Assembly: GCF_039539965.1 (NCBI RefSeq)
Contig: NZ_BAABED010000001.1
Coordinates: forward strand, 3,224,001 to 3,288,000
Origin: Arthrobacter methylotrophus
GTDB taxonomy: Bacteria; Actinomycetota; Actinomycetes; Actinomycetales; Micrococcaceae
DNA: 64,000 bases
Direction: 5' to 3'
In this document: positions 6,648-62,178 of the stretch, piece after piece
How positions within the stretch are numbered: the stretch's first letter is position 1
How the letters are laid out: each line of letters opens with the position of its first letter
The notes under the pieces: generated by a model
Seen by the model: only the letters and a program-made list of their open reading frames with translations
The model's database searches: none
Told to the model about the DNA's origin: nothing
Position numbers and translations under genes: made by a program

Positions 6648-6653
6648 CCCTCA

Positions 6654-6659
6654 ACTCTA
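6654..6659 (-). promoter_or_regulatory. -10 box of leaderless add promoter
   Basis: TAGAGT, six bases before the GTG start; no ribosome-binding site fits between. No convincing -35. Confidence 0.6.
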
Positions 6660-6675
6660 GGGGGACGGAAGGTGC

Positions 6676-7383
6676 TTAGCCAGCGCGCTTCGAGCGCTCG
6701 ACGCCGCCCGTCGCGTTGACGGCGGCATCTGCATCTTCCGCGGTTGCTCCCGCGGGAGCCGCTTCCTTCTTTTCGGCGTCTTTCTTTTCGAGGTGCTTGT
6801 GCCACCAACGCAGCGTGTGGTCGACGATCACACCGAGCACCACAGCGAATGCCACGGCAATTCCGACTCCCAGGAGCGGATTGTTGTGCACCCAGTGGCC
6901 GGCTAGTGAGCCGACCCCGATCGAATACCCCACCCAGGTGAAGCAGGCGAAGGCATCCAGCAAGAAGAAGGTCCTGTGGCGAAATCCTGTCTGTCCAGCC
7001 ACATAGTTCACCGCCACACGGCCCCAGGGGATATACCGTGCGGTGAAGATAAGGACTGCGCCGCGCTTGTCCAGTTCGTAGTGGGCCCAAGCGAACATCT
7101 TCTGGACCTTCGGCTTGCGCATCCATTTCCAACGGTCCAAACCGATCTTGCGACCGAGGATGTAGGCCATGTTGTCACCGGCCATGGCCCCGACAAGCGC
7201 GGTAGCGCCGAGGAGCCACAGATTGGGCTCGCCCCGGTGCATTGCCAGGGCCGAGAGCCCGACGATCGCGGTTTCACTCGGAAGGATCGTGGCAAAGCCG
7301 TCAATGAAGAAGAAGACCAGGAGGACCGGATAGATCCACGGTTGCCCGGCGGCGTGCTCGAGCATGTGGTTCATGAATTCCAC
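6676..7383 (-). CDS. DedA family membrane protein (first of two)
   Basis: 235 residues from the GTG at 7383, which has AGGAG ten bases upstream. A TTG at 7401 lies upstream of that site and an ATG follows at 7374. The DedA (VTT/SNARE-associated) core starts with QPWIYPVLLVFFFIDGFATILPSE, keeping the family Pro-Ser-Glu motif, followed by GAMAGDNMAYILGRKIG and FTARYIPWGRVAVNYVAG, the region of the conserved Arg. About five membrane or re-entrant segments are present and the tail is Lys/Ala-rich. DedA proteins act as lipid scramblases or carriers (undecaprenyl phosphate and phosphatidylethanolamine in known cases). A second, similar DedA gene follows upstream. Confidence 0.92.
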   Translation of the reverse strand: MEFMNHMLEHAAGQPWIYPVLLVFFFIDGFATILPSETAIVGLSALAMHRGEPNLWLLGATALVGAMAGDNMAYILGRKIGLDRWKWMRKPKVQKMFAWAHYELDKRGAVLIFTARYIPWGRVAVNYVAGQTGFRHRTFFLLDAFACFTWVGYSIGVGSLAGHWVHNNPLLGVGIAVAFAVVLGVIVDHTLRWWHKHLEKKDAEKKEAAPAGATAEDADAAVNATGGVERSKRAG

Positions 7384-7604
7384 GCAGGCATTGCTCCTCA
7401 AGGAAAGTCACACGGTTTGGTGACATAGGTCGCTATCCAGTGTCCCACGGCCGGAGCGTCGTTCGCTACGCCCCGGCCGGAGAGGAACACAACTTAACGC
7501 TAGTCCGGAAGACCCGGCCAAGGCATCCTCCCCGGGATGGATCTTCCGGTACGGACGGTTCATACCCAGGGAGGAGACATCCCGCCCCAAGTTTGCGATC
7601 CCGC

Positions 7605-8255
7605 CTACTGGACTGGTTCCCCTTCAGGTTCGCCCGCTTCTGCATCCACTTCCGTGGCGGTCGTTGCGCCGCGGACTTTGCTGATGATCCGGTCCACGAC
7701 GATTCCCAGGATGACGGCCGCGACGATCGCGATGATCGCCCCCAGAAGGTGATTGTGTTCGAACCATTGGCCGAAGAACAAACCGATAGCGACGGAGTAA
7801 CTGGCCCATAGGACGGCAGACATGGCCGTGAGCGCCACGAACATGCCGTGCGAGAAATGCGTGGCGCCAGCCGTGAGATTGACCGCCACGCGGCCGATGG
7901 GAATGAAACGGGCCACGATGATCAGTGACGCGGCCCGGCGTCGAAGTTCCCGTCCAGCCCACCGGAAGGCACCTTGCATCCTTTGGGAACGCATCCATCG
8001 CCAGCGCCGGACACCTATTCGGCGGCCGATCATGTAGGCGATGTTGTCCCCTATGAAGGCCCCCAGCGCGCCCACGAGGATCAGCAGCCATGCACTCGGC
8101 ACCCCGGTGGTCGCGGAAACGGCCGCGAGCCCCACCACCACCGACTCGCTGGGGATAGGCGGGAAGAAACCGTCGATCACGCAGCAGGCAAAGACCAGAA
8201 GCAAGACCCAGGGCTGCCCGGCTGCGGCGAGGATGAAGTCGTTGATGGCTTGCAC
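7605..8255 (-). CDS. DedA family membrane protein (second of two)
   Basis: 216 residues from the GTG at 8255. The frame is open further upstream but that part overlaps deoA and reads as low-complexity Arg/Gly sequence. The same order of motifs as in the neighbouring DedA is seen: QPWVLLLVFACCVIDGFFPPIPSE, GDNIAYMIGRRIGVRRW, VARFIPIGRVAVNLTAGATH, then two hydrophobic segments. The C-terminus has an acidic Glu/Val/Gly tail, unlike the Lys-rich tail of its neighbour. The start overlaps no good ribosome site (GGGAAG nearby), so it is less certain. The two paralogues are separated by about 220 bases without a gene. Confidence 0.9.
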   Translation of the reverse strand: MQAINDFILAAAGQPWVLLLVFACCVIDGFFPPIPSESVVVGLAAVSATTGVPSAWLLILVGALGAFIGDNIAYMIGRRIGVRRWRWMRSQRMQGAFRWAGRELRRRAASLIIVARFIPIGRVAVNLTAGATHFSHGMFVALTAMSAVLWASYSVAIGLFFGQWFEHNHLLGAIIAIVAAVILGIVVDRIISKVRGATTATEVDAEAGEPEGEPVQ

Positions 8256-8320
8256 GGTCTTCCCAACGAACGGCAGTGGGGATTGTCTCCCGGACGTCCG
8301 AAAATGCGCGGGAGACCAGC

Positions 8321-9631: not shown

Positions 9632-10038
9632 CGGTTCTCCTTCAGGTTGTCGGGACCGAAGGCATCGGGCAGCACTTGGTCCATGGTCTTGATGCCTTGC
9701 GTTGTCATGAGCTGCATGCCGGGTGCCCGGAATTCATACAGCAATTGCCTGCAGCGTCCACACGGCATGAGAACATTGCCCTTCGCGTCGACGCAATAGA
9801 ACGCCCGTAGCCTGCCGCCGCCACCCATATGGAGATCTCCCACCAGAGCGCACTCGGCGCACAGCGTGAGACCATAGCTGGCGTTCTCCACGTTGCAGCC
9901 ACTGACGATCCGGCCGTCCTCGGTGAGGGCTGCAGCCCCCACCGGGAACTTCGAATACGGAGCGTAGGCCTTCTCCATGGCGGCAACCGCGGCAGCCTCA
10001 AGGGCAGCCCAGTCCACGTCGGTATCCGTGACGGCCAC
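9628..10038 (-). CDS. cdd: Cytidine deaminase
   Basis: 136 residues, a small homotetrameric-type enzyme converting cytidine and deoxycytidine to uridine forms. The zinc site is plain: NVENASYGLTLCAEC supplies one Cys and the catalytic Glu, and PCGRCRQLL supplies the other two Cys. The GTG at 10038 was preferred over the TTG at 10044 because AAGGG lies at correct spacing for the GTG and is too close to the TTG. It overlaps deoA and directly follows the permease gene, so importer and deaminase are coexpressed. Confidence 0.95.
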   Translation of the reverse strand: MAVTDTDVDWAALEAAAVAAMEKAYAPYSKFPVGAAALTEDGRIVSGCNVENASYGLTLCAECALVGDLHMGGGGRLRAFYCVDAKGNVLMPCGRCRQLLYEFRAPGMQLMTTQGIKTMDQVLPDAFGPDNLKENR

Positions 10039-10040
10039 AG

Positions 10041-17492: not shown

Positions 17493-17927
17493 TCAGATGG
17501 CTGAATGGAGGGCGGCCGTGAGCCGGCCAAGGGTGTCGTGAAGCTGCGCAAGCTCAGAGGCACTCAAGCCGGCGGAGTCGGCTAGCCGTTGCGGCACCGT
17601 CTTCGCCCGACTGCTGAGGGCCCGGCCCGCATTGCTAAGGTGGACCTCGACGCGACGCTCATCCTCGGCCGAACGCCGGCGCTCCACGAGGCCCACGGAT
17701 TCAAGCCTCTTGAGCAGCGGAGACAGGGTACCCGAGTCGAGTCCCAATTCCACGCCCAGTTCGCGGACGCTTCGTGGCTCGCTTTCCCAGAGGACCAGCA
17801 TCACGAGGTACTGCGGATACGTCAGCCCAAGCTCGTCCAGCACCGGCCGGTAGACCGCCGTCGCCGCCTTCGAAGCGGAGTAGAGGGCGAAACAAACCTG
17901 GCGGTTGAGACGGGGGGTTTCACTCAT
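17493..17927 (-). CDS. ohrR: OhrR-type MarR-family peroxide-sensing repressor
   Basis: 144 residues from the ATG at 17927. The single N-terminal Cys (residue 12, in RQVCFALYSASKA) is in the position of the sensing Cys of OhrR. The winged helix follows: TYPQYLVMLVLWE, VRELGVELGLDSGTLSPLLKRLE, and the wing SAEDERRVEVHL. In known OhrR proteins oxidation of this Cys releases DNA. A palindromic operator and a promoter lie just upstream; the -10 box is seven bases before the ATG and no ribosome site exists, so the mRNA looks leaderless. It should autoregulate ohrR-ohr-oxidoreductase. Confidence 0.93.
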   Translation of the reverse strand: MSETPRLNRQVCFALYSASKAATAVYRPVLDELGLTYPQYLVMLVLWESEPRSVRELGVELGLDSGTLSPLLKRLESVGLVERRRSAEDERRVEVHLSNAGRALSSRAKTVPQRLADSAGLSASELAQLHDTLGRLTAALHSAI

Positions 17928-17934: not shown

Positions 17935-17963
17935 ACGATAGCCAACAATTAAATTGTGCACAA
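17935..17963 (-). promoter_or_regulatory. ohrR promoter
   Basis: On the minus strand: -35 TTGTGC (17963-17958), a 17-base spacer, and -10 TATCGT (17940-17935). Transcription would start at or next to the ohrR ATG at 17927. The OhrR-type palindrome fills most of the spacer. Confidence 0.7.
17945..17957. promoter_or_regulatory. OhrR operator
   Basis: ACAATTAAATTGT, a perfect 13-bp palindrome centred on one A. It is the same core as the Bacillus OhrR box (recalled as TACAATTAAATTGTA). AT-rich in a GC-rich genome and placed between -35 and -10 of ohrR, so binding would block RNA polymerase. Confidence 0.82.
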
Positions 17964-18052: not shown

Positions 18053-19252
18053 TTAGAGATCCCTGATGGTGCGTAGCGCGGCGGCGGCCAGGACTTGAAT
18101 CGCGAAGCCGAGCGCACGCTCGTCCACGATGAAGTCACCCCGGTGGAGATCGTATTCTTCACCGCCTGGCGTGTGGGTTCCGAGCCGCATCATGGCGCCG
18201 GGCAGGTCAGCCAGGAACCAGGCGAAATCCTCACCACCCATGGACTGCGGCGTCAAGACGACGGCATGCTCGCCGAGTTCGGCACGTGCCGCGGCCTCAA
18301 TGAGGGCGGTTTCGTGTTCCGAGTTGACCACGGGCGGGACGCCGCGCGTGTGCTCAAGGTGGACATCCACCCCGTACGGCGCAGCAACTTGCTGGACGAC
18401 ATCGTCCAACAACTCCCCCGCACTGTGCCAAGCGTCACGGTCCAGGCACCGCATGGTACCCGCCATGTAGCCGCTGGCGGGGATGGCGTTGGGCGCCGAA
18501 CCTGCAGTGATCTGGCCCCAGACCACCGAGACGCCGCTGCGTACATCCACGCGACGCGACAGCACGGCCGGGACATTGACCGCGATCTGGGCCAGCGCGA
18601 AGACGAGGTCCTCAGTCAGGTGCGGACGGGACGTGTGACCACCCCGCCCTGTCAGTTCAATCTTGATGGTGTCCGACGCCGAGGTGATGGCGCCGATGCG
18701 CGTGCCGATCTTGCCCACGTTGATACGCGGATCACAGTGGAGTGCCAGGATCCGCGGAACACCCTGAAGGACCCCCTGTTCGATGCAGGACAACGCCCCG
18801 CCGGGCATGGTTTCCTCCGCCGGCTGGAAGATGATGCGGACCGTGCCGCCCAGCGGGGACTCCTGGTGCATGGCCTGCAGCACCAAGGCGATGCCAAGCA
18901 TGCTGGTGGTGTGGACGTCGTGCCCGCACGCGTGGGTGACACCGTGGTTCTTCGACGCGAAGGGAAGCCCGGTCTCCTCGATGATGGGGAGGGCGTCAAT
19001 GTCTCCGCGCAGCGCGGTGGCGATGGGTCCGTCGCCGACGTCGACCGTCAGCCCTGAGCCTTCGAGCCTGCGGGGCTTCAGCCCCGCAGCTTCGAGCCGT
19101 TCTGCCAGTTTTTCCGTCGTTCGGAATTCCTTGAAGGAAAGTTCCGGGTGCGCATGCAAGTCCCTCCGGAATTCGATGAGTTCCGGCAGGAGGTCTTCAA
19201 GCCACGGCTTCACCACGGGGGTCGGCTCGGTTTCAGTAGTGAAATTGCGCAC
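18053..19252 (-). CDS. M20D-family amidohydrolase (AbgB/HipO-like)
   Basis: 399 residues, a metal-dependent amidohydrolase that cleaves N-acyl or aryl-amide bonds of amino acids. Motifs in order: FRRDLHAHPELSFKEF (about 28-43), GDIDALPI, THACGHDVHTTSML with metal-binding Cys and His, FQPAEETMPGG with the catalytic Glu, LTGRGGHTSRPH in the lid domain, and SMGGEDFAWFL near the end. The GTG at 19252 is fixed by a TAGAGT box six bases upstream (leaderless). The exact substrate (p-aminobenzoyl-glutamate, hippurate or another N-acyl amino acid) cannot be told. Confidence 0.92.
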   Translation of the reverse strand: MRNFTTETEPTPVVKPWLEDLLPELIEFRRDLHAHPELSFKEFRTTEKLAERLEAAGLKPRRLEGSGLTVDVGDGPIATALRGDIDALPIIEETGLPFASKNHGVTHACGHDVHTTSMLGIALVLQAMHQESPLGGTVRIIFQPAEETMPGGALSCIEQGVLQGVPRILALHCDPRINVGKIGTRIGAITSASDTIKIELTGRGGHTSRPHLTEDLVFALAQIAVNVPAVLSRRVDVRSGVSVVWGQITAGSAPNAIPASGYMAGTMRCLDRDAWHSAGELLDDVVQQVAAPYGVDVHLEHTRGVPPVVNSEHETALIEAAARAELGEHAVVLTPQSMGGEDFAWFLADLPGAMMRLGTHTPGGEEYDLHRGDFIVDERALGFAIQVLAAAALRTIRDL

Positions 19253-19258: not shown

Positions 19259-19264
19259 ACTCTA
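19259..19264 (-). promoter_or_regulatory. -10 box of leaderless amidohydrolase promoter
   Basis: TAGAGT, six bases before the GTG at 19252; same hexamer as for add and the exonuclease III gene. Confidence 0.6.
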
Positions 19265-19341: not shown

Positions 19342-20475
19342 CTAGAGAACGTCAGTGTCCCCGCTTGCCTTGAGCGCGTCCACCGCGCCCTTGACCCGCT
19401 GCGCATGCTCCTTGGTGGTGACCAGCAAAGCATCCGGCGTGTCCACGATCACAACGTCCTTGATGCCGATGAGCGCGATCACGCGCTTGGTATCGGAAAC
19501 AACCACGCCGCTCGCGTTCTCGGTGAAGACGCGCGCACCTTCGCCGAGAACCGTCACTTCGTCGACGTCGCCGGCGTTGTTGAGGCGACCGATCGCGGCG
19601 AAGTCTCCGACGTCATCCCACCGGAAAGTACCGGGCACGACGGCGACATCCCCCGCCGCCGCGGCGGGTTCTGCCACCGCATAATCAATGGCGATCTTAG
19701 GCAGGGTAGGCCACACCCGGGCCGTTACCTCGTCGCGTTCCGGAGTGTCCCAGGCATCCGCGATTTCCTGCAGCCCGGCAAACAGGACCGGCTGGTTCGC
19801 TTCAAGGTGCTTGAGCATGAGGGCAACGGGCGCGACAAACATTCCGGCATTCCAGACGTAGTCGCCGGTCTCCAGGTACTTCTTGGCGATGTCCTCGCTT
19901 GGCTTCTCGACGAATTCCACGACGGCATGCGCGTTCGGTGCATCGTCGATATTGAGCAAATTGCCGGTGCGGATGTAGCCGAACCCGGTGGAGGGATGCG
20001 TGGGCTTGATGCCGATCGTAACTATCTTTCCCGCGGCCGCGGTGTGGATAGCCTCTCGCACCGTCTCCTGGAACAGGTTGTCCGGGCTGATGACATGGTC
20101 CGCGGCGAAGGAACCCATGATGGTGTCCGGGTCGCGACGGTGCAGGATGGCGGCGGCGAGACCGATGGCCGCTCCTGAGTCTTTGGGTTCGCTTTCGAGG
20201 ACCAGCTCATCGTCGCCCACTTCGGGAAGCTGACGGCAGACGGCTGCACGATGCGCCACACCTGTGACCACCAGGACCCGATTGCCGGCCAACGGCTCCA
20301 AGCGGTCATACGTCGCCCGGAGAAGGGTGCTCCCCGAACCCGTGAGGTCGTGCAGGAATTTGGGCGCAGCGGCACGCGACAGCGGCCATAGGCGCGTGCC
20401 CACTCCGCCGGCCGGAATGACCGCGTGGAAGTGGCGCATTGGCGATTCGCGGCTTACCGCGTTGTCTATACTCAC
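19342..20475 (-). CDS. manC: Mannose-1-phosphate guanylyltransferase
   Basis: 377 residues, making GDP-mannose from mannose-1-phosphate and GTP for glycan synthesis. The nucleotidyltransferase signature IPAGGVGTRLWPLSR lies at about residues 20-34, followed by LVLESEPKDSGAAIGLAA and TGFGYIRTG, VEFVEKPS, YVWNAGMF and TFRWDDVGDFA. The GTG at 20475 is chosen over the ATG twelve codons later (20439) because TATGGT stands six bases upstream of the GTG, giving a leaderless start. There is no phosphomannose isomerase domain at the C-terminus. Confidence 0.94.
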   Translation of the reverse strand: MSIDNAVSRESPMRHFHAVIPAGGVGTRLWPLSRAAAPKFLHDLTGSGSTLLRATYDRLEPLAGNRVLVVTGVAHRAAVCRQLPEVGDDELVLESEPKDSGAAIGLAAAILHRRDPDTIMGSFAADHVISPDNLFQETVREAIHTAAAGKIVTIGIKPTHPSTGFGYIRTGNLLNIDDAPNAHAVVEFVEKPSEDIAKKYLETGDYVWNAGMFVAPVALMLKHLEANQPVLFAGLQEIADAWDTPERDEVTARVWPTLPKIAIDYAVAEPAAAAGDVAVVPGTFRWDDVGDFAAIGRLNNAGDVDEVTVLGEGARVFTENASGVVVSDTKRVIALIGIKDVVIVDTPDALLVTTKEHAQRVKGAVDALKASGDTDVL

Positions 20476-20481: not shown

Positions 20482-20487
20482 ACCATA
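20482..20487 (-). promoter_or_regulatory. -10 box of leaderless manC promoter
   Basis: TATGGT, six bases before the GTG at 20475. It decides between two possible start codons. Confidence 0.6.
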
Positions 20488-27929: not shown

Positions 27930-28763
27930 CTAGAGCCGGTAGTCGACTACCAGCGGTGCATGGTCGGAGAAGCGGGTGTCCCATGACGGTGCCCGGTCAA
28001 CGACGGCCGACAGAGCGGCTGCCGCGAGTCCGGGAGTGGCCATGTGGTAGTCGATGCGCCAGCCCGTGTCAGTATCAAAGGCCTTACCGCGCTGGGACCA
28101 CCAGGTGTAGGGGCCATCGACTTTTCCTGCCAAGCCCCTGTGGACATCCCTCCATCCGATCTCGTCGCCGAAGAAGCGGTCGAAGTACTCCCGCTCCTCA
28201 GGAAGGAAGCCTGCACGCTTGGTGTTGCCCTTCCAATTCTTGATGTCGAGCTCAGTGTGGCCCACGTTGAGGTCACCCACCACCAAGGCGTGCTCGCTGT
28301 GTTTGGCGAGTTCCGGAAGCCTGGTGCTCATGACATCCAGGAAGCGGTATTTGTCCACCTGTTTGGGCGTGTCCACTTCGCCGGAATGCACGTAGGCGCT
28401 GACGACGGTCAGGGTGGTGTCCTCGCCACCGCTCGTCTTCACGGCATAGTCGGCCTCGACCCAGCGACCGGTGGTGGCAAAATAGTCGTCGCCGATTCCC
28501 ACGCGGGTAGCGTCGGGCTCCTGCCGCGAGGCGATGGCTACGCCCGCGCGCCCCTTGGCCTCGGCTTCGGCGTGCAGGATGTGCCAGCCTTCGCCGATGA
28601 GCTGGTGGACCACCTCATCTGGCGCGCGGACCTCCTGCAGACACAGGATGTCGACGTCGCGCGGCTCAAGCCACTCCGCCATGCCCTTCTTGTAGGCGGC
28701 GCGAATGCCGTTGACGTTGACGGTTGCGATGCGAAGGAAGTCCTTCTTCAATGCCGAGCTCAC
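27930..28763 (-). CDS. xth: Exodeoxyribonuclease III
   Basis: 277 residues of the exonuclease/endonuclease/phosphatase fold, acting on abasic sites and 3' blocks in base-excision repair. Catalytic motifs are IATVNVNGIRAA, ILCLQEVRA with the metal-binding Glu, VVGDLNVGHTELD, and SDHAPLVVDY with the terminal Asp-His pair. The GTG at 28763 has a TAGAGT box six bases upstream that overlaps the stop codon of the preceding gene, so this gene probably has its own leaderless promoter. Confidence 0.95.
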   Translation of the reverse strand: MSSALKKDFLRIATVNVNGIRAAYKKGMAEWLEPRDVDILCLQEVRAPDEVVHQLIGEGWHILHAEAEAKGRAGVAIASRQEPDATRVGIGDDYFATTGRWVEADYAVKTSGGEDTTLTVVSAYVHSGEVDTPKQVDKYRFLDVMSTRLPELAKHSEHALVVGDLNVGHTELDIKNWKGNTKRAGFLPEEREYFDRFFGDEIGWRDVHRGLAGKVDGPYTWWSQRGKAFDTDTGWRIDYHMATPGLAAAALSAVVDRAPSWDTRFSDHAPLVVDYRL

Positions 28764-28769: not shown

Positions 28770-28775
28770 ACTCTA
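28770..28775 (-). promoter_or_regulatory. -10 box of leaderless exonuclease III promoter
   Basis: TAGAGT, six bases before the GTG. Its first three bases are the TAG stop codon of the upstream gene. Confidence 0.55.
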
Positions 28776-29345
28776 GTCGATGATGGTGCCCGAAACGGGC
28801 TCGTCGGTGCCGCCGGAGGACTTGATCATGTCCCGGGCGTTGCTTGAGGTAATTGCTATGGTCTCCAAAGCGCGGGTGATGGTGTCCTGATCTGCGGACT
28901 CACCCTTCGCCCGTTCGTCCTCCACGACGCGAACCTGCACCTGGACAATCTTGAACGAATGGTCCAGTTTGAGGTCCCGCATTTCATCCGCTTCGCTGCG
29001 TTCCGAGACCACCCGTGTGCCGCCATGGTCAGCGCTCGACGACGACGGCGCCCGGCCGGTGGCCGCGTTGAAGGCGTTTTGTGCCTCAGCGAGTTTTTCT
29101 CCAGCCCGTTTAGCGGCCCTCTGGATACTGAAAACGACGAAAGCGGCAAGAGCGAGCCAGCCGAAGGAAACAACGGCGACAATCCAACCGACGACGTCGT
29201 TCTGGTTGGCCGCGAAGATCACGGCCACCAGGAACGCGATGAGCACTACCGTCATGCCCAGCCCGCCGACGCGGAAGCCTTTAAAGGGGCTCTTCGCGGA
29301 AGCGGATGGGGGAACAGATGACGGGGAGTCGCCGAGAGATCGCAT
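28773..29345 (-). CDS. Hypothetical membrane protein with two helices and a cytoplasmic tail
   Basis: 190 residues. A polar N-terminal 28 residues is followed by two membrane segments (about 30-46 and 52-72), then about 115 residues of charged sequence containing a helical region (AAKRAGEKLAEAQNAFNAA) and a beta-like stretch (HSFKIVQVQVRVVEDER). I recognise no named family. The ATG at 29345 is preceded by GACAAT at six bases, a weak form of the leaderless pattern. It lies upstream of the exonuclease III gene. Confidence 0.75.
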   Translation of the reverse strand: MRSLGDSPSSVPPSASAKSPFKGFRVGGLGMTVVLIAFLVAVIFAANQNDVVGWIVAVVSFGWLALAAFVVFSIQRAAKRAGEKLAEAQNAFNAATGRAPSSSSADHGGTRVVSERSEADEMRDLKLDHSFKIVQVQVRVVEDERAKGESADQDTITRALETIAITSSNARDMIKSSGGTDEPVSGTIID

Positions 29346-31120: not shown

Positions 31121-32098
31121 CTAATCAACGAGGCTCCGTCCGGTCAACCGAAGGAAGACGTCCTCCAAGGAAGAGCGCCGCACGAGGGACGTCAAGGGCC
31201 GGAGGCGGCGTGCGGAGACTTGCTCGAGGGCCGATTCGCCGTCGTTAGCGTAGATGAGCACCCGGTCCGGAAGCGTCTCGACGCGTTCGCCGATGCCGGC
31301 GAGTTCGCTTCCGATGGTCGCGTTGCGTTCCGAACCGAAGCGGAGTTCCAGGACCTCGCGCGTGGAGTATTCCCGGATCAGGCTTGCAGGCGAGCCTTCG
31401 GCCATGATCCGGCCCTTGTCCACCACGATCAACCGGTCACAGAGCTGTTCGGCTTCGTCCATGTAATGCGTGGTGAGGATCAGCGTGACGCCTTGTTCCT
31501 TGAGCCTGAACAACCGGTCCCAGAGGATATGCCGGGCCTGCGGGTCCAACCCCGTGGTGGGTTCGTCCAAGAGCAGGATCTTGGGTTCGTTGATCAGCGA
31601 GCGGGCAATCGTCAGACGCCGTTTCATGCCGCCCGAGAGGGCGTCCACCCTGGATTTGGCTTTGTCTGTCAGCTGGGCGAACTCGAGCAGTTCGTCGGCC
31701 TTCGGGCGCAAATAGCTCATGGGCAGGCCGAAGTAGCGGCCATAGACAATCAGGTTTTCGCGGACCTTCAGTTCCTCGTCGAGGTTGTCCTGCTGCGGCA
31801 CTACGCCAAGGTGCGCGCGAACTTCGGGCCCGTGGGTTTCGGGGTCGAGGCCCATGATGCTGAGCTTCCCGGAGGTGCGCTGGGTGACGCCGCCGATCAT
31901 CTTCATGGTGGTGGACTTACCCGCTCCGTTGGGACCCAGAAGCCCGAAGGACTCCCCCGCCGGAACCTCGAAGGAGATCCCGTCGACGGCGGTGAGCTCG
32001 CCGTAGCTCTTGGTGAGTTTTTCGGCTGTGATGACTGCAGGTGGGTTCATCTGGAAGCTGGCTGAAGTGGAGAAGGAGCGTGTGGCTTCATTGTGCAC
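31121..32098 (-). CDS. ABC-2 exporter ATP-binding protein (NodI/DrrA-like)
   Basis: 325 residues with one ABC domain: Walker A GPNGAGKST, Q-loop VPQQDNLDEEL, signature LSGGMKRRLTIARSL, Walker B ILLLDEPTTGLD and H-loop TTHYMDEAE. About 85 residues after the core carry the family's accessory domain. The GTG at 32098 is chosen over the ATG at 32050 because TAGTCT lies exactly six bases upstream (leaderless). It heads an operon with two ABC-2 permeases. Confidence 0.94.
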   Translation of the reverse strand: MHNEATRSFSTSASFQMNPPAVITAEKLTKSYGELTAVDGISFEVPAGESFGLLGPNGAGKSTTMKMIGGVTQRTSGKLSIMGLDPETHGPEVRAHLGVVPQQDNLDEELKVRENLIVYGRYFGLPMSYLRPKADELLEFAQLTDKAKSRVDALSGGMKRRLTIARSLINEPKILLLDEPTTGLDPQARHILWDRLFRLKEQGVTLILTTHYMDEAEQLCDRLIVVDKGRIMAEGSPASLIREYSTREVLELRFGSERNATIGSELAGIGERVETLPDRVLIYANDGESALEQVSARRLRPLTSLVRRSSLEDVFLRLTGRSLVD

Positions 32099-32104: not shown

Positions 32105-32110
32105 AGACTA
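32105..32110 (-). promoter_or_regulatory. -10 box of leaderless exporter promoter
   Basis: TAGTCT, six bases before the GTG at 32098; favours that start over the downstream ATG. Confidence 0.6.
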
Positions 32111-33386: not shown

Positions 33387-34528
33387 GGCTGGTCCCCTCG
33401 CCTGTTAGGGTCCGGCGGGAGCATCGCTTCCACGCGCAGTCCAGGTTCCAGCGGCGTCAGGCGAAGCGTGCCGCCGAGGGCCTCGACGCGCTCGCGCATG
33501 CCTCTCAGCCCGTTACCTGCGGGGGCTCCGCGAAGGCCTGCGCCGTCGTCGTCGATCCTCACCTTCAGTGCGTTCCCCGCCCATTCCAAAAGTACGACGG
33601 CGGACGCCGCGCCCGAGTGCCTGCGGACGTTGCTTAGCGCTTCCTGGACTACCCGATAGGCCGTTTCCTGCTGTGCCGTTTCCTGCTGTGCCGTTCCTAC
33701 TGGTTCATGGGCCACGGAGTTTTCAAGCCGCACATCCAGGCCGCCGCGCCGTGCGTCTTCCACGAGTTCCGGGATCCGCGCGAGACTTGGCGGGGCCGGC
33801 GGGCTCAACGGGGCATCGTCGCGGAGCACACCGAGAAGCTGACGGACTTCGGTCAAGGACTCCTTGCTCGCGGCCTTGATGGCTTCGAGTGCCGGCCGGA
33901 GCTTCTCCGGATCGTTTGTGCCTAAATGGAGCGCCACCGAGGCCTGGACGTTGATCATCGAAAGGGAGTGTGCCACCACATCGTGGATATCGCGGGCGAG
34001 CGTGAGCCGGTACTCGTCCCGTTCGGCCTGTTTCGCGGCCTCGCGCCGGCGTCGGTATTCGGCCATCCGCTCGCCCCGCCGTCGGAAGCCTTCACCGATC
34101 AGGACGAGGATCGCCGTCCAGGCAACACCGGCGGAGGCTCGAATAAGCGCGGGATCATTGCCGGCGAAAACGGCGGTCAGCACGATGGCGGCGGCGCAGA
34201 ATCCAGCCCCCAGCCAGGCCTCCCAGCGCAGCCCGGCGGCTGCCGTCAGGATGATCGACACCGCCAAGGACAGCACAATCGGGCCCCATGCGTAGCCGAG
34301 GAGCACGTAGCTGAACGTGGCCGCGAGGGTGATCGGCAGCATGACCGCGGGCTTGCGGGTCCGGAAAGCCAGGGCGGCGGGCCCTGCGAAGAGCAGCATG
34401 AAGGCGAGGGGATCCAAGGGGCGCAGAGTTCCCTGGTGGTTTGCCGAAAACACGGTTCCCAGCACTTGAATCAGGGCCACCGCGATCACGATGAAGCTCG
34501 TGGGGGGACCCTGGAAACGCCGCTGCAT
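33383..34528 (-). CDS. Two-component sensor histidine kinase (HisKA_3 type)
   Basis: 381 residues. About five membrane helices fill the first 150 residues. The dimerisation domain follows with the phospho-acceptor His in ARDIHDVVAHSLS, and the ATPase domain with YRVVQEALSNVRRHSGA (N box) and DDDGAGL and GNGLRGMRERVEALGG. A five-residue in-frame duplication (AQQET twice) lies directly before the N box. The ATG at 34528 has TAGGCT six bases upstream (leaderless). Partner of the overlapping response regulator; the ligand is unknown. Confidence 0.95.
   Translation of the reverse strand: MQRRFQGPPTSFIVIAVALIQVLGTVFSANHQGTLRPLDPLAFMLLFAGPAALAFRTRKPAVMLPITLAATFSYVLLGYAWGPIVLSLAVSIILTAAAGLRWEAWLGAGFCAAAIVLTAVFAGNDPALIRASAGVAWTAILVLIGEGFRRRGERMAEYRRRREAAKQAERDEYRLTLARDIHDVVAHSLSMINVQASVALHLGTNDPEKLRPALEAIKAASKESLTEVRQLLGVLRDDAPLSPPAPPSLARIPELVEDARRGGLDVRLENSVAHEPVGTAQQETAQQETAYRVVQEALSNVRRHSGAASAVVLLEWAGNALKVRIDDDGAGLRGAPAGNGLRGMRERVEALGGTLRLTPLEPGLRVEAMLPPDPNRRGDQP
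33664..33693. repeat. 15-bp in-frame tandem duplication in the kinase gene
   Basis: TTTCCTGCTGTGCCG occurs twice with no spacer. It adds five residues just before the N box of the ATPase domain. Confidence 0.9.
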
Positions 34529-34534: not shown

Positions 34535-34540
34535 AGCCTA
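34535..34540 (-). promoter_or_regulatory. -10 box of leaderless kinase promoter
   Basis: TAGGCT, six bases before the ATG at 34528. Confidence 0.6.
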
Positions 34541-36959: not shown

Positions 36960-37045
36960 GACCCTCGGCCCAGGCGTACGATCCGTGGTCTTCAAAATGC
37001 CGCTCCCTGGTGGTACACCACCCAACGCCAGTCGCGACGACTTAA
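36960..37045 (-). ncRNA. ZTP (pfl) riboswitch upstream of glyA
   Basis: The minus strand carries the conserved pfl-motif blocks in order: GTCGTCGCGACTGGCG, then GGGTGGTGTACCACC forming a hairpin, AGGGAGCG, and after a 20-base variable stem ACGCCTGGGCC. ZTP riboswitches sense ZMP/ZTP, which accumulate when 10-formyl-THF is short, and turn on folate and purine genes. The genes behind it, glyA and folD, are classic members of that regulon. The aptamer lies about 105 bases before the glyA start. Confidence 0.92.
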
Positions 37046-37068: not shown

Positions 37069-37074
37069 TAGGCT
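37069..37074 (+). promoter_or_regulatory. -10 box of leaderless purU promoter
   Basis: TAGGCT, six bases before the GTG at 37081. It favours this codon over the TTG at 37075. Confidence 0.6.
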
Positions 37075-37080: not shown

Positions 37081-37941
37081 GTGACTGACTCCACCCTGCC
37101 TACGTCTTTTGTTGTAACCCTGTCCTGCCCGGACCGGCCCGGGATCGTGCACGCTGTTGCAGGCGCCTTGCTGGAGGCGGGCTGTAACATCGCCGACTCT
37201 CAGCAATATGGCAGTCCCAGCACGGGAAACTTCTTCATGCGCGTGGAAGCCACGACGTCCTCGACCCAAGCAGAACTGAGTTCGGCGCTGGCCCCCGTGG
37301 CCGAAGCATTCGGCATGAAGTGGCAGATCAACCCGGTGGGCCAGAAGGTCCGTACCCTCATCCTGTGTTCCAAGGACGCCCATTGCCTCAATGATCTGCT
37401 ATTCCAGCAACGCACGGGGACCCTTCCCATCGAGGTGCCGGCCATTGTGTCCAACCACCGGGATCTCGAAGGCCTGGCCGAGTTCTACGGCATTCCTTTC
37501 CACTACATCCCCGTCACGCCGGACACCAAGGCCGAAGCGGAGGCGAAACTCCTCGCGCTCATCCACGAGCACGGCATCGAACTGACTGTCCTGGCGCGTT
37601 ACATGCAGGTCCTCTCCAACGATCTCTGCACCGAGCTCAACGGCAGGGCCATCAACATCCATCACTCCTTCCTGCCCTCCTTCAAGGGTGCCAAGCCCTA
37701 CCACCAGGCCCACGCCCGCGGTGTGAAGATCATCGGCGCCACGGCCCACTACGTGACGGCCGACCTCGACGAGGGCCCGATCATCGAGCAGGAAGTCATC
37801 CGTGTGGACCACGCACGCACGGCCGAACAATTCGTGCAGATGGGTCGCGATGTCGAGGGCCGCACCCTTACCCAGGCCGTGCAGTGGCATGCCGAACACC
37901 GCGTCCTGCTCGACGGCACCCGCACAGTGGTCTTCAACTAG
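37081..37941 (+). CDS. purU: Formyltetrahydrofolate deformylase
   Basis: 286 residues, hydrolysing 10-formyl-THF to THF and formate. An N-terminal ACT-like domain (about 5-80; VVTLSCPDRPGIVHAVAG) is followed by a formyltransferase-fold domain with INIHHSFLPSFKGAKPY and ATAHYVTADLDEGPII, which supply the catalytic Asn, His and Asp. The GTG start follows from a TAGGCT box six bases upstream. It is divergent from glyA-folD. The stop codon TAG lies inside a palindromic repeat element. Confidence 0.96.
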   Translation: MTDSTLPTSFVVTLSCPDRPGIVHAVAGALLEAGCNIADSQQYGSPSTGNFFMRVEATTSSTQAELSSALAPVAEAFGMKWQINPVGQKVRTLILCSKDAHCLNDLLFQQRTGTLPIEVPAIVSNHRDLEGLAEFYGIPFHYIPVTPDTKAEAEAKLLALIHEHGIELTVLARYMQVLSNDLCTELNGRAINIHHSFLPSFKGAKPYHQAHARGVKIIGATAHYVTADLDEGPIIEQEVIRVDHARTAEQFVQMGRDVEGRTLTQAVQWHAEHRVLLDGTRTVVFN

Positions 37942-37996
37942 CTCGCATTTCTTGTCGTTATGAGCCCTCATAACGACATCTACTGCTAGTTAGTTG
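37935..37996. repeat. Palindromic intergenic element, copy 1
   Basis: About 62 bases. Outer arms CAACTAGCTCGCA and TGCTAGTTAGTTG pair with mismatches; the centre TCGTTATGAG and CTCATAACGA pairs perfectly over 10 bp. It contains the purU stop codon and ends just before the next promoter. Same family as the elements at 38592, 51102 and 61068. Confidence 0.85.
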
Positions 37997-38003: not shown

Positions 38004-38009
38004 TACGCT
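38004..38009 (+). promoter_or_regulatory. -10 box of leaderless methyltransferase promoter
   Basis: TACGCT, six bases before the ATG at 38016. Confidence 0.55.
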
Positions 38010-38015: not shown

Positions 38016-38603
38016 ATGACGCCGCGCCTGACGGAATGCCGCGATTGGTTCATCCGTCTGCTCAAAGAGGAACACAGGCACTCGCTATTCGAACTAGGCT
38101 GTGCGACCGGCGTCGAAGGATTGGAATTCGTGCGGGCGGGCCTGCACTACACCGGTGTCGACCTGTCCGAGGAAAGCATCCACCTCGCCCGGGCGAAGGG
38201 CTTGGACGCCAGTGTGGCCAACGGCCGGTCTCTGCCCTTCGCAGATGCCTCGTTCCCCGCCGTGTGGACTATGGACACCCTCATGCACGTCCGCAACACT
38301 CGAATCAACGACGTCGTCAGCGAACTTGTGCGGGTCAGCGCGGCTGGCGCGCCGATCGCCGTCGGGCTCTGGTCAGGTGACGATGAAGAAGTCCTCAACC
38401 AAGACGACGAAGACGAGCCGCGGCGGTTCTTCAGCCGGCGGAGCGACGCAACCGTGCTGCGGATCTTCGGGGCGCACGGCGTCGTCGAGCACTTTGAGAC
38501 CTGGCCCGAAGGCACGGGAATTGAGTCCGGGCCGGGAGCCGGGCAATGGGTGCAGCATTACCAGTTCTTGGTCCTTCGGACGTCTCCGGGACCAACCAGC
38601 TAA
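38016..38603 (+). CDS. Class I SAM-dependent methyltransferase
   Basis: 195 residues. Motif I is ELGCATGVEGLEF (about 26-38), the acidic residue binding the SAM ribose follows in TGVDLSEESIHLARAKG, and motif II-like TMDTLMHVRN appears later. This is a Methyltransf_11/25-type small-molecule methylase; substrate unknown. The ATG at 38016 is used because TACGCT lies six bases upstream; a GTG six codons earlier is less likely. Its TAA stop lies inside a palindromic repeat. Confidence 0.85.
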   Translation: MTPRLTECRDWFIRLLKEEHRHSLFELGCATGVEGLEFVRAGLHYTGVDLSEESIHLARAKGLDASVANGRSLPFADASFPAVWTMDTLMHVRNTRINDVVSELVRVSAAGAPIAVGLWSGDDEEVLNQDDEDEPRRFFSRRSDATVLRIFGAHGVVEHFETWPEGTGIESGPGAGQWVQHYQFLVLRTSPGPTS

Positions 38604-38654
38604 CAGTTGTTGCCGTTATGAAGGCTCAAAACGACACCTACTGCTAGCTAGTTG
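38592..38654. repeat. Palindromic intergenic element, copy 2
   Basis: Shares CAGTTGTTGNCGTTAT and CTCAAAACGACA with copy 3 and ends in CTACTGCTAGCTAGTTG, as copy 1 nearly does. It holds the methyltransferase stop codon and precedes the next promoter. Confidence 0.82.
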
Positions 38655-38673: not shown

Positions 38674-38679
38674 TAGGCT
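38674..38679 (+). promoter_or_regulatory. -10 box of leaderless carbonic anhydrase promoter
   Basis: TAGGCT, six bases before the ATG at 38686. Confidence 0.6.
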
Positions 38680-38685: not shown

Positions 38686-39210
38686 ATGACTCCCATTTAC
38701 ACCTTTGCCGGGGATACCCCGGTCATCCATGAAACCGCCTTCGTGGCGCCCACGGCATCGATCATCGGCAAGGCTACCCTCGGCGAGGACTCCAGTGCCT
38801 TCTACGGGGTGTCGGTCCGTGCAGACACTGCCACCATCAGCGTCGGCGTCGGCTCGAACCTCCAGGACAATGTGGTCCTGCATGCCGATCCAGGTTTCCC
38901 CTGCACCGTCGGCGACCGTGTCAGCGTGGGACACAGTGCAGTGGTGCACGGATGCACGGTGGAGGACGACTGCCTCATCGGCATGAGCGCCACCATCCTG
39001 AACGGCGCCGTCATCGGCACCGGTTCTCTCGTGGCGGCGGGCGCTGTCGTGCTCGAGGGAACTGTCATCCCGCCGCGCTCCTTGGTTGCCGGCGTGCCCG
39101 CCAAAGTGCGCCGCGAACTGAGCGAAGACGAGCTCGACGGCGTGAGGCACAACGCGGCCCACTACCGGGAGTTGGCGGCGGCGCACCGCGAGATGCACGC
39201 GCAGGGCTAA
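38686..39210 (+). CDS. Gamma-carbonic anhydrase family protein
   Basis: 174 residues of left-handed beta-helix built from hexapeptide repeats (I-I-G-K-A-T-L style). Metal-binding His residues fit VVLHADPG and the pair in VGHSAVVHGCTV. The C-terminal helix ends the trimer-forming fold. Homologues (YrdA, PaaY, Cam) bind zinc or iron and some hydrate CO2 or cleave thioesters, so carbonic anhydrase activity is plausible but unproven. The start is fixed by the leaderless -10 box. Confidence 0.9.
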   Translation: MTPIYTFAGDTPVIHETAFVAPTASIIGKATLGEDSSAFYGVSVRADTATISVGVGSNLQDNVVLHADPGFPCTVGDRVSVGHSAVVHGCTVEDDCLIGMSATILNGAVIGTGSLVAAGAVVLEGTVIPPRSLVAGVPAKVRRELSEDELDGVRHNAAHYRELAAAHREMHAQG

Positions 39211-51101: not shown

Positions 51102-51163
51102 CAACTAGCTCGCAGTTGTTGACGTTATTACCTCTCAAAACGACAACAACTGCGAGCTAGTTG
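51102..51163. repeat. Palindromic intergenic element, copy 3 (most perfect)
   Basis: Arms CAACTAGCTCGCAGTTGTTG and CAACAACTGCGAGCTAGTTG pair perfectly over 20 bp, enclosing a 22-base centre (ACGTTATTACCTCTCAAAAC plus GA). It lies between the doxX start and the isocitrate dehydrogenase stop. Confidence 0.92.
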
Positions 51164-56051: not shown

Positions 56052-57268
56052 ATGGACGAGGAAATCGCTGTTTTCTGCGGGCTGGATGTCGGGAAATCCG
56101 AACATCACGCGACCGCCCTGGACCGCTCGGGCGAGCGGATTTTCGACAAGCCCTTGCCCCAGGACGAGGCCCGGCTCCGTGAGTTGTTCACAGGCCTGCA
56201 GCAACACGGCAGAGTGCTGGTTATCGTTGACCAGCCCAACACCATCGGCGCACTGCCGATAGCCGTGGCTCGGGACTGCGGAGCCACGGTGGCCTACCTG
56301 CCCGGATTGGCCATGCGCAAGGCCGCGGACCTGTACCCGGGCAAGTCCAAAACCGATGCCCGGGACGCCTTCATCATCGCGGACACGGCACGCTCTATGC
56401 CCCACACCCTGCGGTCCGTGGACCGGGACAGCGAAGTGCTGGCCGCGTTGAAGGTACTCTCCGGTTTCGACGCTGACCTGACCCACGAATGCACACGGGC
56501 GATCAACCGGCTGCGGTCCTTGCTGCTGCAGATCTTCCCCGCCCTGGAGCGAGTCTTCCCGGGCACCGTCCTGACCAGGACCCTGGTGCTGGAGCTGTTC
56601 ATCAAATACGCCGGGCCGACCGGGCTCCGGGCCGCCGGGCGTGGAAACGTGCTGCGCTGGGCCAGGAACCACAGCCGGAAAGACCCCGCCAAGCTCATCG
56701 ACGCAGTCTTCACAGCCCTGGACGAGCAGACCGTCACCGTGATCGGCACCGACGCCGTCGAACTCGTGATTCCACGCGTCGCAGCCCAGATCAAGGAACT
56801 CAAAGAGCAGCGGGCCATCGTTGCCGCCGAAGTGGAAAAGCTCCTGGATGACTTCCCTCTTTCCACGGTCTTGATGTCCATGCCGGGAGTCGGCATCAAG
56901 ACCGCCGCGACCATACTCCTGAGCATCGGCGACGCCAGCACCTTCACCTCCGCAGGCCACCTGGCCGCGTATGCCGGCATCGCACCCGTCACCCGGCGTT
57001 CCGGCACCTCGATCCGCGGGGAGTTCCCCGCCCGTTCCGGCAACAAACAGCTCAAGAACGCGCTCTTCAGATCCGCCTGGATCGCCAGCTGCCACCACCC
57101 GGCGTCCAAGGACTACTACGAAAAGAAACGGGCCCAGGGAAAGAAACACAACGCCGCAGTCATCTGCCTGGCCCGCCGACGCTGCGACGTCATCTTCTCC
57201 ATGCTCAAACACGGCACCCTCTACGAAGACAAACCGGCCCGGACCGCTTGACGAAAAACATAGGGACA
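55948..57268 (+). mobile_element. IS110-family insertion sequence (boundaries approximate)
   Basis: One intact transposase gene flanked by non-coding ends. ATAGGGACA occurs on both sides, at about 55948 and 57260, and may mark the two ends or the core; IS110 elements lack long terminal inverted repeats and target duplications. The real left boundary may lie further out, near 55800-55840. The element sits between the protease gene and the purH terminator, interrupting no gene. Confidence 0.6.
56052..57251 (+). CDS. IS110-family transposase (DEDD recombinase)
   Basis: 399 residues from the ATG at 56052. The RuvC-like N-terminal domain has Asp12 in FCGLDVGKSEH, Asp60 in VIVDQPNT and Asp102/Asp105 in KSKTDARDA; the second position is Asp instead of the Glu described in Piv. 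A helical linker follows. The C-terminal Transposase_20 domain has MSMPGVGIKTAATILLSIGD and AYAGIAPVTRRSGTS, where a Ser in the RRSGTS motif is expected to be the nucleophile. The frame is complete, so the element may be active. Confidence 0.95.
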   Translation: MDEEIAVFCGLDVGKSEHHATALDRSGERIFDKPLPQDEARLRELFTGLQQHGRVLVIVDQPNTIGALPIAVARDCGATVAYLPGLAMRKAADLYPGKSKTDARDAFIIADTARSMPHTLRSVDRDSEVLAALKVLSGFDADLTHECTRAINRLRSLLLQIFPALERVFPGTVLTRTLVLELFIKYAGPTGLRAAGRGNVLRWARNHSRKDPAKLIDAVFTALDEQTVTVIGTDAVELVIPRVAAQIKELKEQRAIVAAEVEKLLDDFPLSTVLMSMPGVGIKTAATILLSIGDASTFTSAGHLAAYAGIAPVTRRSGTSIRGEFPARSGNKQLKNALFRSAWIASCHHPASKDYYEKKRAQGKKHNAAVICLARRRCDVIFSMLKHGTLYEDKPARTA

Positions 57269-59174: not shown

Positions 59175-59180
59175 TAAGGT
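59175..59180 (+). promoter_or_regulatory. -10 box of leaderless sugar kinase promoter
   Basis: TAAGGT, six bases before the ATG at 59187. The bases also resemble a ribosome site (AAGGTGG), so a leadered reading is possible. Confidence 0.5.
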
Positions 59181-59186
59181 GGGGCT

Positions 59187-60113
59187 ATGGGTTCCGAGGA
59201 TGTGATTTTGGTGGCCGACGTCGGCAAGAGCCGGTGCCGGGTTGAACTCAGGCAGGGCGATAAAGTCTTGGGTTCGGCGGACCAGCATGGTTTCCCCGGC
59301 TTGGGGATGGATCACGGAGCCCGGTTCGCATTCGAGCTGCTCGCGGACACCGCCGCCATGCTGCCGGCCGGGGTCCCGAGCGATTCCTTGTGGGGAATCG
59401 GCGCCGCCGTAGCCGGGGTTGAGGCCTCCGCGGAGAACTCCCGTGAGCTCGCGGCCCTGCTTTCCAAACGTTTCCGGGTGCCCGCTGCAGTCCTCTCGGA
59501 TGCCACAGCCGCCCACCTTGGCGCCCTCCAGGGCGCACCGGGAACCGTGCTGATTGTGGGTACTGGCGCCGTAGCCTTCCGCTTTGACGACGCCGGTAAC
59601 CTCCACCGTGCCGACGGTTGGGGGCCGCTGCTGGGTGATCGCGAAAGCGGTCGCTGGATCGGCCAGCAAGGACTTCAGGCCGCATTGCAAGCGCACGACG
59701 GCGGCCCGGCAACTTCGCTGCTCGCCTCCGCCGCCGCGTTGGCTGGCTCGCCGGGTCACCTTCCGGCGTGGCTCGCCGAGTCCGACAACCCGGCCCGGAC
59801 AATGGCGCGGTTCACGCCCGAGGTACTGCACGCGGCGGAGGCTGGAGACGCCGTCGCACGCTCCCTCCTGGACGAAGCGTGCAGGCTTCTCGTGAACACG
59901 GTGACCCTTGCCTCAGACGACTCGAAGCGGGTGGCGCTCCTTGGCGGGGTAGTGAAATCGGAGTTCTTTGCCGGGCTCTTGCACAACGCCCTCGCTTCGG
60001 CTGGGATTGAGGTGGTTGCGCCGCTCGGCGATGGGATGGACGGTGCCGCCCTCGCAGCGAACCGCCGCGGGCTCCTTCAGGAAAGGTATATTCACCGTGA
60101 CGGAACAGTCTGA
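59187..60113 (+). CDS. BadF/BadG-type N-acetylglucosamine/MurNAc kinase
   Basis: 308 residues of the ASKHA (actin-like ATPase) fold. Phosphate 1: [14 protein letters not shown]; phosphate 2: [13 protein letters not shown]; and the segment [22 protein letters not shown] typical of GlcNAc kinases; the adenosine motif is [10 protein letters not shown]. It overlaps murQ by 17 bases, so the likely job is to phosphorylate MurNAc and/or GlcNAc recovered from cell wall, as MurK does. Divergent from purH. Confidence 0.9.
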
Positions 60114-61050: not shown

Positions 61051-61067
61051 AGAGCCTTCCCCATCCC

Positions 61068-61128
61068 CAACTAACACGCATTAGATGTCGTTTTGAGCCG
61101 TCATAGCGACAACAACTGCGAGTCAGTG
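61068..61128. repeat. Palindromic intergenic element, copy 4 (opposite orientation)
   Basis: Its complement reads GACTCGCAGTTGTTGTCG, then CTATGACGGCTCAAAACGAC, then ATCTAATGCGTGTTAGTTGG, matching copies 1-3. It sits between the convergent murQ and purN genes. Confidence 0.85.
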
Positions 61129-61144
61129 GGGGGGTGCACGAGAC

Positions 61145-61717
61145 TCAGGCGTGCTTTCGCGCCGCAAGCTCTGCGAGGGTCCGGACCAAGAGCCTGCGTT
61201 CCACTACCTTGATGCGTTCGTGCAGGGTGTCCTCGGTGTCCTCCGGGGCGATCGCGACAGCTTCCTGGGCGATGATAGGGCCGGTGTCCACGCCGGCGTC
61301 GGCCCAGTGGACAGTGCAGCCCGTGACCTTCACTCCATAGGCCATCGCATCGCGGACTCCGTGAGCCCCCGGAAAGGCCGGCAACAGCGCCGGGTGGGTG
61401 TTCAGATATTTGCCGCCGAACGCATCGATGAATTCCGGGCTGACAATCCGCATGAACCCCGAGGAAACCACCACGTCCGGGTGGTACGCGGCAACAGCCG
61501 TGGTCAGCGCGGCGTTCCAATCGGCCCGGTCAGCATAGTCCTTGAAGTCCACCACGAAGGTATCCAGCCCTGCCTCGGCGGAACGTTCCACGCCGTAAGT
61601 GCCCGGCCTGTCGGCACCTACGGCTGCGATCTCAACGTCCAGCTCGCCCGCTTTCACGGCGTCGATAACTGACTGGAGATTGGAACCGGTGCCGGAGACG
61701 AGGACAACAATGCGCAT
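61145..61717 (-). CDS. purN: Phosphoribosylglycinamide formyltransferase
   Basis: 190 residues, transferring a formyl group from 10-formyl-THF to GAR in purine synthesis. Motifs: VVLVSGTGSNLQSVID at the phosphate site, GFMRIVSPEFIDAFGGKYLNTHPALLPAFPG with the catalytic Asn-His pair, and VDTGPIIAQEAV with the Asp. Usually adjacent to purH in Actinobacteria; here a kinase-murQ module on the other strand lies between them. Start fixed by TAAGCT six bases upstream. Confidence 0.96.
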   Translation of the reverse strand: MRIVVLVSGTGSNLQSVIDAVKAGELDVEIAAVGADRPGTYGVERSAEAGLDTFVVDFKDYADRADWNAALTTAVAAYHPDVVVSSGFMRIVSPEFIDAFGGKYLNTHPALLPAFPGAHGVRDAMAYGVKVTGCTVHWADAGVDTGPIIAQEAVAIAPEDTEDTLHERIKVVERRLLVRTLAELAARKHA

Positions 61718-61723
61718 TGCACT

Positions 61724-61729
61724 AGCTTA
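61724..61729 (-). promoter_or_regulatory. -10 box of leaderless purN promoter
   Basis: TAAGCT, six bases before the ATG at 61717. It nearly abuts the divergent TAGGCT box at 61743, so the two promoters are back to back. Confidence 0.6.
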
Positions 61730-61742
61730 TGGGTGGCTCGCG

Positions 61743-61748
61743 TAGGCT
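61743..61748 (+). promoter_or_regulatory. -10 box of leaderless membrane-protein promoter
   Basis: TAGGCT, seven bases before the ATG at 61756. It decides against the earlier in-frame ATG at 61729. Confidence 0.55.
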
Positions 61749-61755
61749 GGAAAAC

Positions 61756-62178
61756 ATGAATTCCGGCGTTGGACCCAGCCCTCAGCAGCATCCACAAAAC
61801 GAAGCTGCCAAATCAGCGCTTGCAGTTACCCAAACGTTGTTCAGGTCATTCCTGCTCACTGTGCTTGGCGCCATCTTCGTCTACGTCCTGAACATCAGCT
61901 ACGTCTGGCTCAGTGCCGTCCTCACCGTCATCGCGGGGGTGCTTGGCGTGGTGGTTCTCGTCCGCACCATCAGGTTCAAGCAGCCGCGCGTCGTGTTACT
62001 CGGCACCATCTCCGGGCTGGTAGTCACGGCCATCATGTGCGTGCTGGTGCTGACTGCAGTCGTCTTCTTCCAACAAATCCGCACCTTGCAGGACTGCGCG
62101 CGGAGCGCGCTGACGCTCCAGGCCCAAAACTCCTGCCAGGTGGACTTCCAAAAGTCCGTTCCCTCCGGGTTGCGCTAG
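61756..62178 (+). CDS. Hypothetical membrane protein with three helices
   Basis: 140 residues. After about 25 polar residues come three membrane segments (about 32-52, 53-68 and 79-102), then a short tail with two Cys (LQDCARSALTLQAQNSCQVDF) that could form a disulfide outside the cell. I recognise no named family. It lies between divergent purN and convergent DUF6350 genes; the spacing to the latter is 31 bases. Confidence 0.78.
   Translation: MNSGVGPSPQQHPQNEAAKSALAVTQTLFRSFLLTVLGAIFVYVLNISYVWLSAVLTVIAGVLGVVVLVRTIRFKQPRVVLLGTISGLVVTAIMCVLVLTAVVFFQQIRTLQDCARSALTLQAQNSCQVDFQKSVPSGLR

Follow-up and report, generated by a model that had tools for sequence, protein, structure and literature searches.

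Results

The stretch under study, which we call the window, comprises 64,000 nucleotides (nt) of the soil bacterium Arthrobacter methylotrophus (NZ_BAABED010000001.1, positions 3,224,001 to 3,288,000) and belongs to a genome of 5.08 Mb with about 63% GC. Its PurU protein has Arthrobacter bambusae (96%) and A. cavernae (93%) as nearest relatives among the 80 loci returned, from which records of the own genome were perhaps left out. Thirteen genes of the window have a TANNNT hexamer six or seven nt before an ATG or GTG start codon, and this hexamer is most probably the -10 element of a promoter whose transcript would begin on the start codon itself, with no leader:

6654..6659, minus strand: TAGAGT of add (adenosine deaminase), 6 nt before GTG at 6647
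17935..17940, minus strand: TATCGT of a MarR-family gene beside an OsmC-like gene (initially named ohrR), 7 nt before ATG at 17927
19259..19264, minus strand: TAGAGT of an M20 peptidase/amidohydrolase gene, 6 nt before GTG at 19252
20482..20487, minus strand: TATGGT of manC, 6 nt before GTG at 20475
28770..28775, minus strand: TAGAGT of an Exo_endo_phos gene (exonuclease III, exoIII), 6 nt before GTG at 28763
32105..32110, minus strand: TAGTCT of an ABC ATPase gene, 6 nt before GTG at 32098
34535..34540, minus strand: TAGGCT of a histidine kinase gene, 6 nt before ATG at 34528
37069..37074, plus strand: TAGGCT of purU, 6 nt before GTG at 37081
38004..38009, plus strand: TACGCT of a methyltransferase gene, 6 nt before ATG at 38016
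38674..38679, plus strand: TAGGCT of a hexapeptide-repeat protein gene (initially named carbonic anhydrase), 6 nt before ATG at 38686
59175..59180, plus strand: TAAGGT of a BcrAD_BadFG-family gene (initially named sugar kinase), 6 nt before ATG at 59187
61724..61729, minus strand: TAAGCT of purN, 6 nt before ATG at 61717
61743..61748, plus strand: TAGGCT of a gene without Pfam family, 7 nt before its ATG at 61756

These sites had been named in an initial annotation, and all thirteen carry the hexamer, spacing and start codon given there, eleven at spacing 6 and two (ohrR and the gene at 61756) at spacing 7. The absence of a ribosome site, also reported there, is borne out: Shine-Dalgarno-like tetramers, defined as GAGG, AGGA or GGAG at -18 to -4, occur at 0/13 of them. 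Several gene names are verified to Pfam level only. Pfam agrees with adenosine deaminase, ManC, PurU (ACT plus formyl transferase), PurN (formyl transferase), histidine kinase, methyltransferase and ABC ATPase, and gives a broader assignment for the amidohydrolase (Peptidase_M20), exonuclease III (Exo_endo_phos), carbonic anhydrase (hexapeptide repeat), sugar kinase (BcrAD_BadFG) and ohrR (MarR family).

The spacing was then measured at gene starts in a sample of 60 stretches from the same genome, which total 1.2 Mb and all lie outside the window. Genes were called by a self-written program that relies on coding bias only and leaves promoter and ribosome-site information unused, so that its starts are crude; 774 of 1000 genes were retained at a score cut-off of 25, and every in-frame ATG, GTG or TTG was a candidate if it lay no more than 60 nt upstream or 36 nt downstream of the coding-derived start. 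TANNNT stands at spacing 6 or 7 before an ATG or GTG in 103/774 genes, whereas 16 control spacing pairs give 11.0 on average and between 6 and 19 each (Poisson P ~3e-62). Shuffling the upstream regions 200 times, the comparison that had been proposed with the initial annotation, gave a mean of 17.25 and a maximum of 32, and the spacing is thus above chance at gene starts, as was claimed. Among all 64 patterns of the form XYnnnZ, TAnnnT is 12.7-fold enriched at spacing 6 and the runner-up 2.8-fold. Counts at spacings 6 and 7 are 48 and 21 for ATG, 26 and 8 for GTG, and 1 and 3 for TTG, with 0-7 at other spacings and means of 2.8, 2.7 and 1.8, respectively, per spacing from 9 to 40. Over 1348 genes TTG starts number 1 and 4 at these spacings with a background mean of 2.7, that is, no clear spike. 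A gap of exactly six holds locally in the window (11 of 13) and does not hold in the sample, where spacings 6 and 7 stand at 74:29. After background correction about 92 of the 103 hits remain, so that ~12% of genes, about one in eight, seem leaderless by this measure, which covers scored genes only and depends on crude start calls. In the window itself 9/48 scored genes have the element at 6 or 7, against 0-2 at control spacings, the caller having missed or misplaced some of the thirteen.

The spike is repeated in two replication sets of same-genus stretches (L261-L280 and L301-L320). A further set from four other families of the order gave 18/231 genes at spacings 6 and 7, where the control means sum to 2.5; these numbers are small. 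In Streptomyces-type loci the counts at spacings 6 and 7 are 12 and 9 for ATG and 1 and 0 for GTG; these loci were gathered by a purU search and are orthologous stretches, hence non-independent.

With respect to gene layout, the element is found at 45/215 divergent genes, 42/326 tandem genes with a gap above 30 nt and 9/175 tandem genes with a gap of 30 nt or less; leaderless elements are thus depleted inside operons. Both members are leaderless in 7/94 divergent called pairs of the sample. At L010:11660-11683 two called genes diverge from start codons separated by 22 bp; each has TANNNT at spacing 6, and the two -10 elements share the same TA. In the window, purN diverges from the gene at 61756; their start codons are separated by 38 bp and their -10 hexamers by 13 bp, and both elements are visible in 24 same-genus loci (L122-L145). 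From this 13-bp distance, the two promoters are probably mutually exclusive.

The hexamers are more varied than the initial annotation held. TAGGCT and TAGAGT, which it described as dominant, make up 15 of the 103 (11 and 4), next to TAGACT 8, TAGGAT 8, TAGCGT 7, TAGGGT 6 and TAGATT 5; the general feature is a G at the third position (55/103). We considered the TAG of the hexamer as a selected in-frame stop and rejected the idea: TAG or TAA occurs in 55/74 hexamers at spacing 6, where it is in frame, and in 21/29 at spacing 7, where it is not, and being present out of frame as well the preference belongs to the promoter. At exoIII the TAG of the -10 is also the stop codon of the upstream open reading frame (ORF) at 28773-29345; a -10 beginning on the upstream gene's stop is a weak pattern in the sample (4/97 tandem leaderless hits). 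Shine-Dalgarno-like tetramers accompany 11/103 starts with the element, compared with 266/652 at the coding-derived starts of other genes, and a background position in the same 103-gene set gives 8. No conserved -35 was found: with 77 sites aligned, every column between -46 and -7 stays at or below 0.09 bits.

Downstream of the hexamer, the second base is G in 68/129 starts at spacing 6 (268/971 at other starts) and in 28/55 at spacing 7 (291/971). With both same-genus replication sets pooled the figures are 28/55 vs 115/436 (P 0.0004) at spacing 6 and 14/26 vs 142/436 (P 0.03) at spacing 7; in the fresh set L301-L320 the preference was repeated at spacing 6 (13/26, P 0.012) and not at 7 (5/12). 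An A at the third base was repeated in the pooled same-genus sets at spacing 6 (P 0.007; L301-L320 alone, P 0.08) and not at spacing 7. A pyrimidine directly precedes the start codon, over the own sample and the two same-genus sets, in 46/55 starts at spacing 7, 79/129 at spacing 6 and 286/458 Shine-Dalgarno-led starts; the difference between spacings 7 and 6 has P 0.0032 when the own (discovery) sample is taken with the same-genus sets. By set, the pyrimidine is present at spacing 7 in 25/29 (own sample), 11/14 (L261-L280), 5/7 (four families) and 10/12 (L301-L320). The test was fixed after L261-L280 and the other-family set, and before the fresh L301-L320. Pooling the two same-genus replication sets gives 21/26 vs 35/55 (P 0.13); alone, neither is significant (P 0.49 and 0.27 against spacing 6, P 0.24 and 0.51 against Shine-Dalgarno-led starts), and the other families give P 1.0. 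Among purU orthologues with spacing 7 the pyrimidine is present in 17/18 rows, and the listed exoIII orthologues with spacing 7, which have a G before the start codon, are a counter-example. A pyrimidine here would set the transcript start on the codon, which the data make suggestive only.

Conservation was assessed in orthologues of at least 45% identity whose match begins in the first 25 residues, repeated upstream sequences being dropped. A hit was TANNNT 5-8 nt from an in-frame ATG or GTG within 12 codons, the controls were seven further spacing bins, each 4 wide, and glyA, folD, the response regulator and trpS were the comparison genes (IDH was intended too, with no orthologues in hand). 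In 10/13 families at least 92% of the orthologues compared keep the element: add 25/25, ohrR 3/3, amidohydrolase 24/26, manC 26/28 (spacings 6-8, eight rows at 8), exoIII 19/19 at 6 or 7 (five with a shifted start), ABC ATPase 13/13 at 6 or 7 (four with a shifted start), hexapeptide-repeat protein 19/20, sugar kinase 5/5, purN 26/27 and the gene at 61756 20/20, all at 7. For purU the total is 21/80, and 21/22 among near relatives (L041-L062, of Arthrobacter, Paenarthrobacter, Pseudarthrobacter, Sinomonas and Glutamicibacter). Among relatives the spacing shifts from 6 to 7 and back, purU and exoIII being mostly at 7 there and at 6 in the window. The comparison genes gave 0/20 (glyA), 0/23 (folD), 0/8 (response regulator) and 2/16 (trpS).

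The initial annotation had offered the spacing as a rule for start-codon calls, with manC and the ABC ATPase as examples. For manC this is upheld: in-frame starts lie 18 and 32 codons upstream in the window, and in 15/24 same-genus relatives the open frame is too short for the 18-codon extension. The protein has 377 residues, and the open frame 379-380 residues in 11/24 of these relatives and 387 to 453 in the other 13. The ABC ATPase leaves no choice to make, having a stop three codons upstream. In-frame upstream alternatives exist for manC, ohrR, purU, the methyltransferase and the gene at 61756, and for none of the other eight. In the sample, 71/103 leaderless starts already coincide with the longest-ORF start and the rule would move the remaining 32.

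Several other features were noticed in the window. A ZMP/ZTP riboswitch at 36961-37045, upstream of glyA, is back to back with the putative leaderless purU promoter at 37069, which places a long regulated leader next to a gene with none. An imperfect palindrome of about 62 bp has four copies in the window, at 37935-37996, 38593-38654, 51102-51163 and 61068-61127, the first two flanking the methyltransferase gene; they fold at -29.5 kcal/mol (z -7.9) and -21.8 kcal/mol (z -3.5), respectively. This family has at least 74 strand-matches in the own genome (40/85 candidates scored) and 23 sites in the 1.2 Mb sample, of which 21 face the 3' end of at least one called gene, and copies also occur in other Arthrobacter-type loci. 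It is REP-like (repetitive extragenic palindromic) in kind; a REP survey (PMC12306157) mentions Arthrobacter only in a table row, which gives counts for A. livingstonensis. An IS110/IS116-type transposase gene lies at 56052-57251.

Discussion

The best reading of the element is that of leaderless promoters of housekeeping-sigma type, to which we give a probability of about 0.93. Position, spacing, codon restriction, Shine-Dalgarno scarcity and conservation in orthologues are direct observations, and the leaderless reading is favoured because of the fixed -10 distance, the limitation to ATG and GTG, the few Shine-Dalgarno signals and the conservation. By analogy with mycobacteria, the sigma factor, the transcript start and the mode of translation would be as follows: RNA polymerase would hold the TANNNT -10 without a conserved -35, favouring a G two bases downstream; transcription would begin 6-8 bases past the -10, on the purine of ATG or GTG; and the mRNA would begin with AUG or GUG and be translated without a Shine-Dalgarno site. 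We take the second-base G to be the contact of sigma region 1.2 with the discriminator. A further proposal, which we hold tentatively and with somewhat more doubt than belief, is that at gap 7 selection keeps a pyrimidine at -1 so that a purine-preferring polymerase starts on the codon, forming with the discriminator G a two-part code that would enforce a zero-length leader without a -35.

Coincidence deserves consideration, as TANNNT-N6-RTG is a weak string and a dozen matches could be collected by scanning 64 kb. The window totals on both strands do stand at expectation, with 14 N6 matches against 11.3 (28/100 shuffles reach 14) and 9 N7 matches against 11.6 by shuffling, and we dropped raw pattern counting as evidence for that reason. 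Genome-wide, TANRNT-N6-RTG occurs 538 times against 468 for the reversed control, and TAGGCT-N6-RTG 70 times against 40. However, 11/14 N6 matches in the window (and 2/9 N7 matches) fall on the named gene starts, the remaining 3 and 7 not being placed at a gene start, and the 103/774 genes against 11.0 outside the window refute chance, and the conservation in orthologues speaks against it too; this explanation is very improbable. Equally hard to sustain is the idea that what is conserved serves translation, or else encodes the N-terminal part of a protein whose gene starts further upstream. Overlap does account for part of the conservation upstream of exoIII, where the -10 contains the stop of the upstream ORF. 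Yet in 9/13 genes an in-frame stop lies 1-3 codons upstream (one codon in add, and three in eight others, being the hexamer's own TAG or TAA), and Shine-Dalgarno-like tetramers are depleted.

A closer competitor, although an unlikely one, is that the -10 is genuine and the leaders are very short (1-5 nt), so that translation is not strictly leaderless. RNA polymerase is able to start over a range of positions, spacing 7 occurs alongside 6, spacing 8 is seen in manC orthologues, and the listed 7-spaced exoIII orthologues have G in place of the pyrimidine, all of which favour short leaders. Against them, the pyrimidine is preferred at spacing 7 (in the replication sets alone, at P 0.13), and the ATG/GTG restriction without a clear TTG spike matches the codon requirement described for strictly leaderless translation in mycobacteria (PMC4633059).

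Several results weigh against the leaderless promoter reading itself, at particular genes or in part. Chance should account for about 11 of the 103 sample genes, roughly one false call in nine, and a second, upstream promoter may exist at any gene. The histidine kinase keeps the element in only 2/4 orthologues and the methyltransferase in 1/7 within 12 codons, the start of the latter being unlike that of its relatives: in 3/7 of them TANNNT-N6-ATG lies farther up, six codons in L045 and more in L042 and L046. For purU the element is found in 0/58 of the more distant loci (L063-L120, mostly Streptomyces). Control bins were also hit, in one or two of the 3 ohrR orthologues (two bins), 18/28 of manC (one bin), 3/5 of the sugar kinase (two bins), 11/20 of the gene at 61756 (one bin) and 12/20 of the comparison gene glyA, while counts elsewhere were mostly 0-4; such frequent hits arise because close orthologues share their flanks.

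The kind of promoter described here is already known as the TA-led, leaderless class of Actinobacteria, and our result amounts to a sound rediscovery of it in another genus. Zheng et al. (2011; PMC3160421) described actinobacterial TA-led genes in which the first T of TANNNT lies about 12 bp upstream of the start, and detected leaderless genes in 86/89 actinobacterial genomes, at ~20%. That distance is exactly our spacing 6, and the middle bases are likewise weak in high-GC genomes; the ~12% in the Arthrobacter sample after background was obtained by a cruder method. The name Arthrobacter does not appear in the main text of that paper. In Mycobacterium tuberculosis, Cortes et al. (2013; PMC3898074) reported a TANNNT -10 without -35 consensus, start sites overlapping the start codon, a purine at +1 and C as the commonest base at -1. 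The same pattern of TANNNT without -35 is seen in Arthrobacter, with the difference that starts were mapped by RNA-seq in that work and are inferred here. The ATG/GTG rule for leaderless translation was established in mycobacteria by reporter tests (Shell et al., 2015; PMC4633059), and in agreement ATG and GTG, not TTG, show the spike in Arthrobacter, here through sequence statistics. Leaderless genes with TANNNT within a few bases of their start and mostly no -35 are also described, and were tested by mutation, in Deinococcus-Thermus (PMC12340547), a phylum other than that of Arthrobacter. The titles listed by literature searches on leaderless genes with Arthrobacter or Micrococcales include no start-site map of this group, which is no proof that none exists.

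In the window the string alone is no commoner than expected and so gives no rule unless an open frame goes with it; the spacing has to be read at open frames, never in raw sequence. Used in this way, it yields checkable predictions of start codons and transcript starts for an Arthrobacter-like genome.

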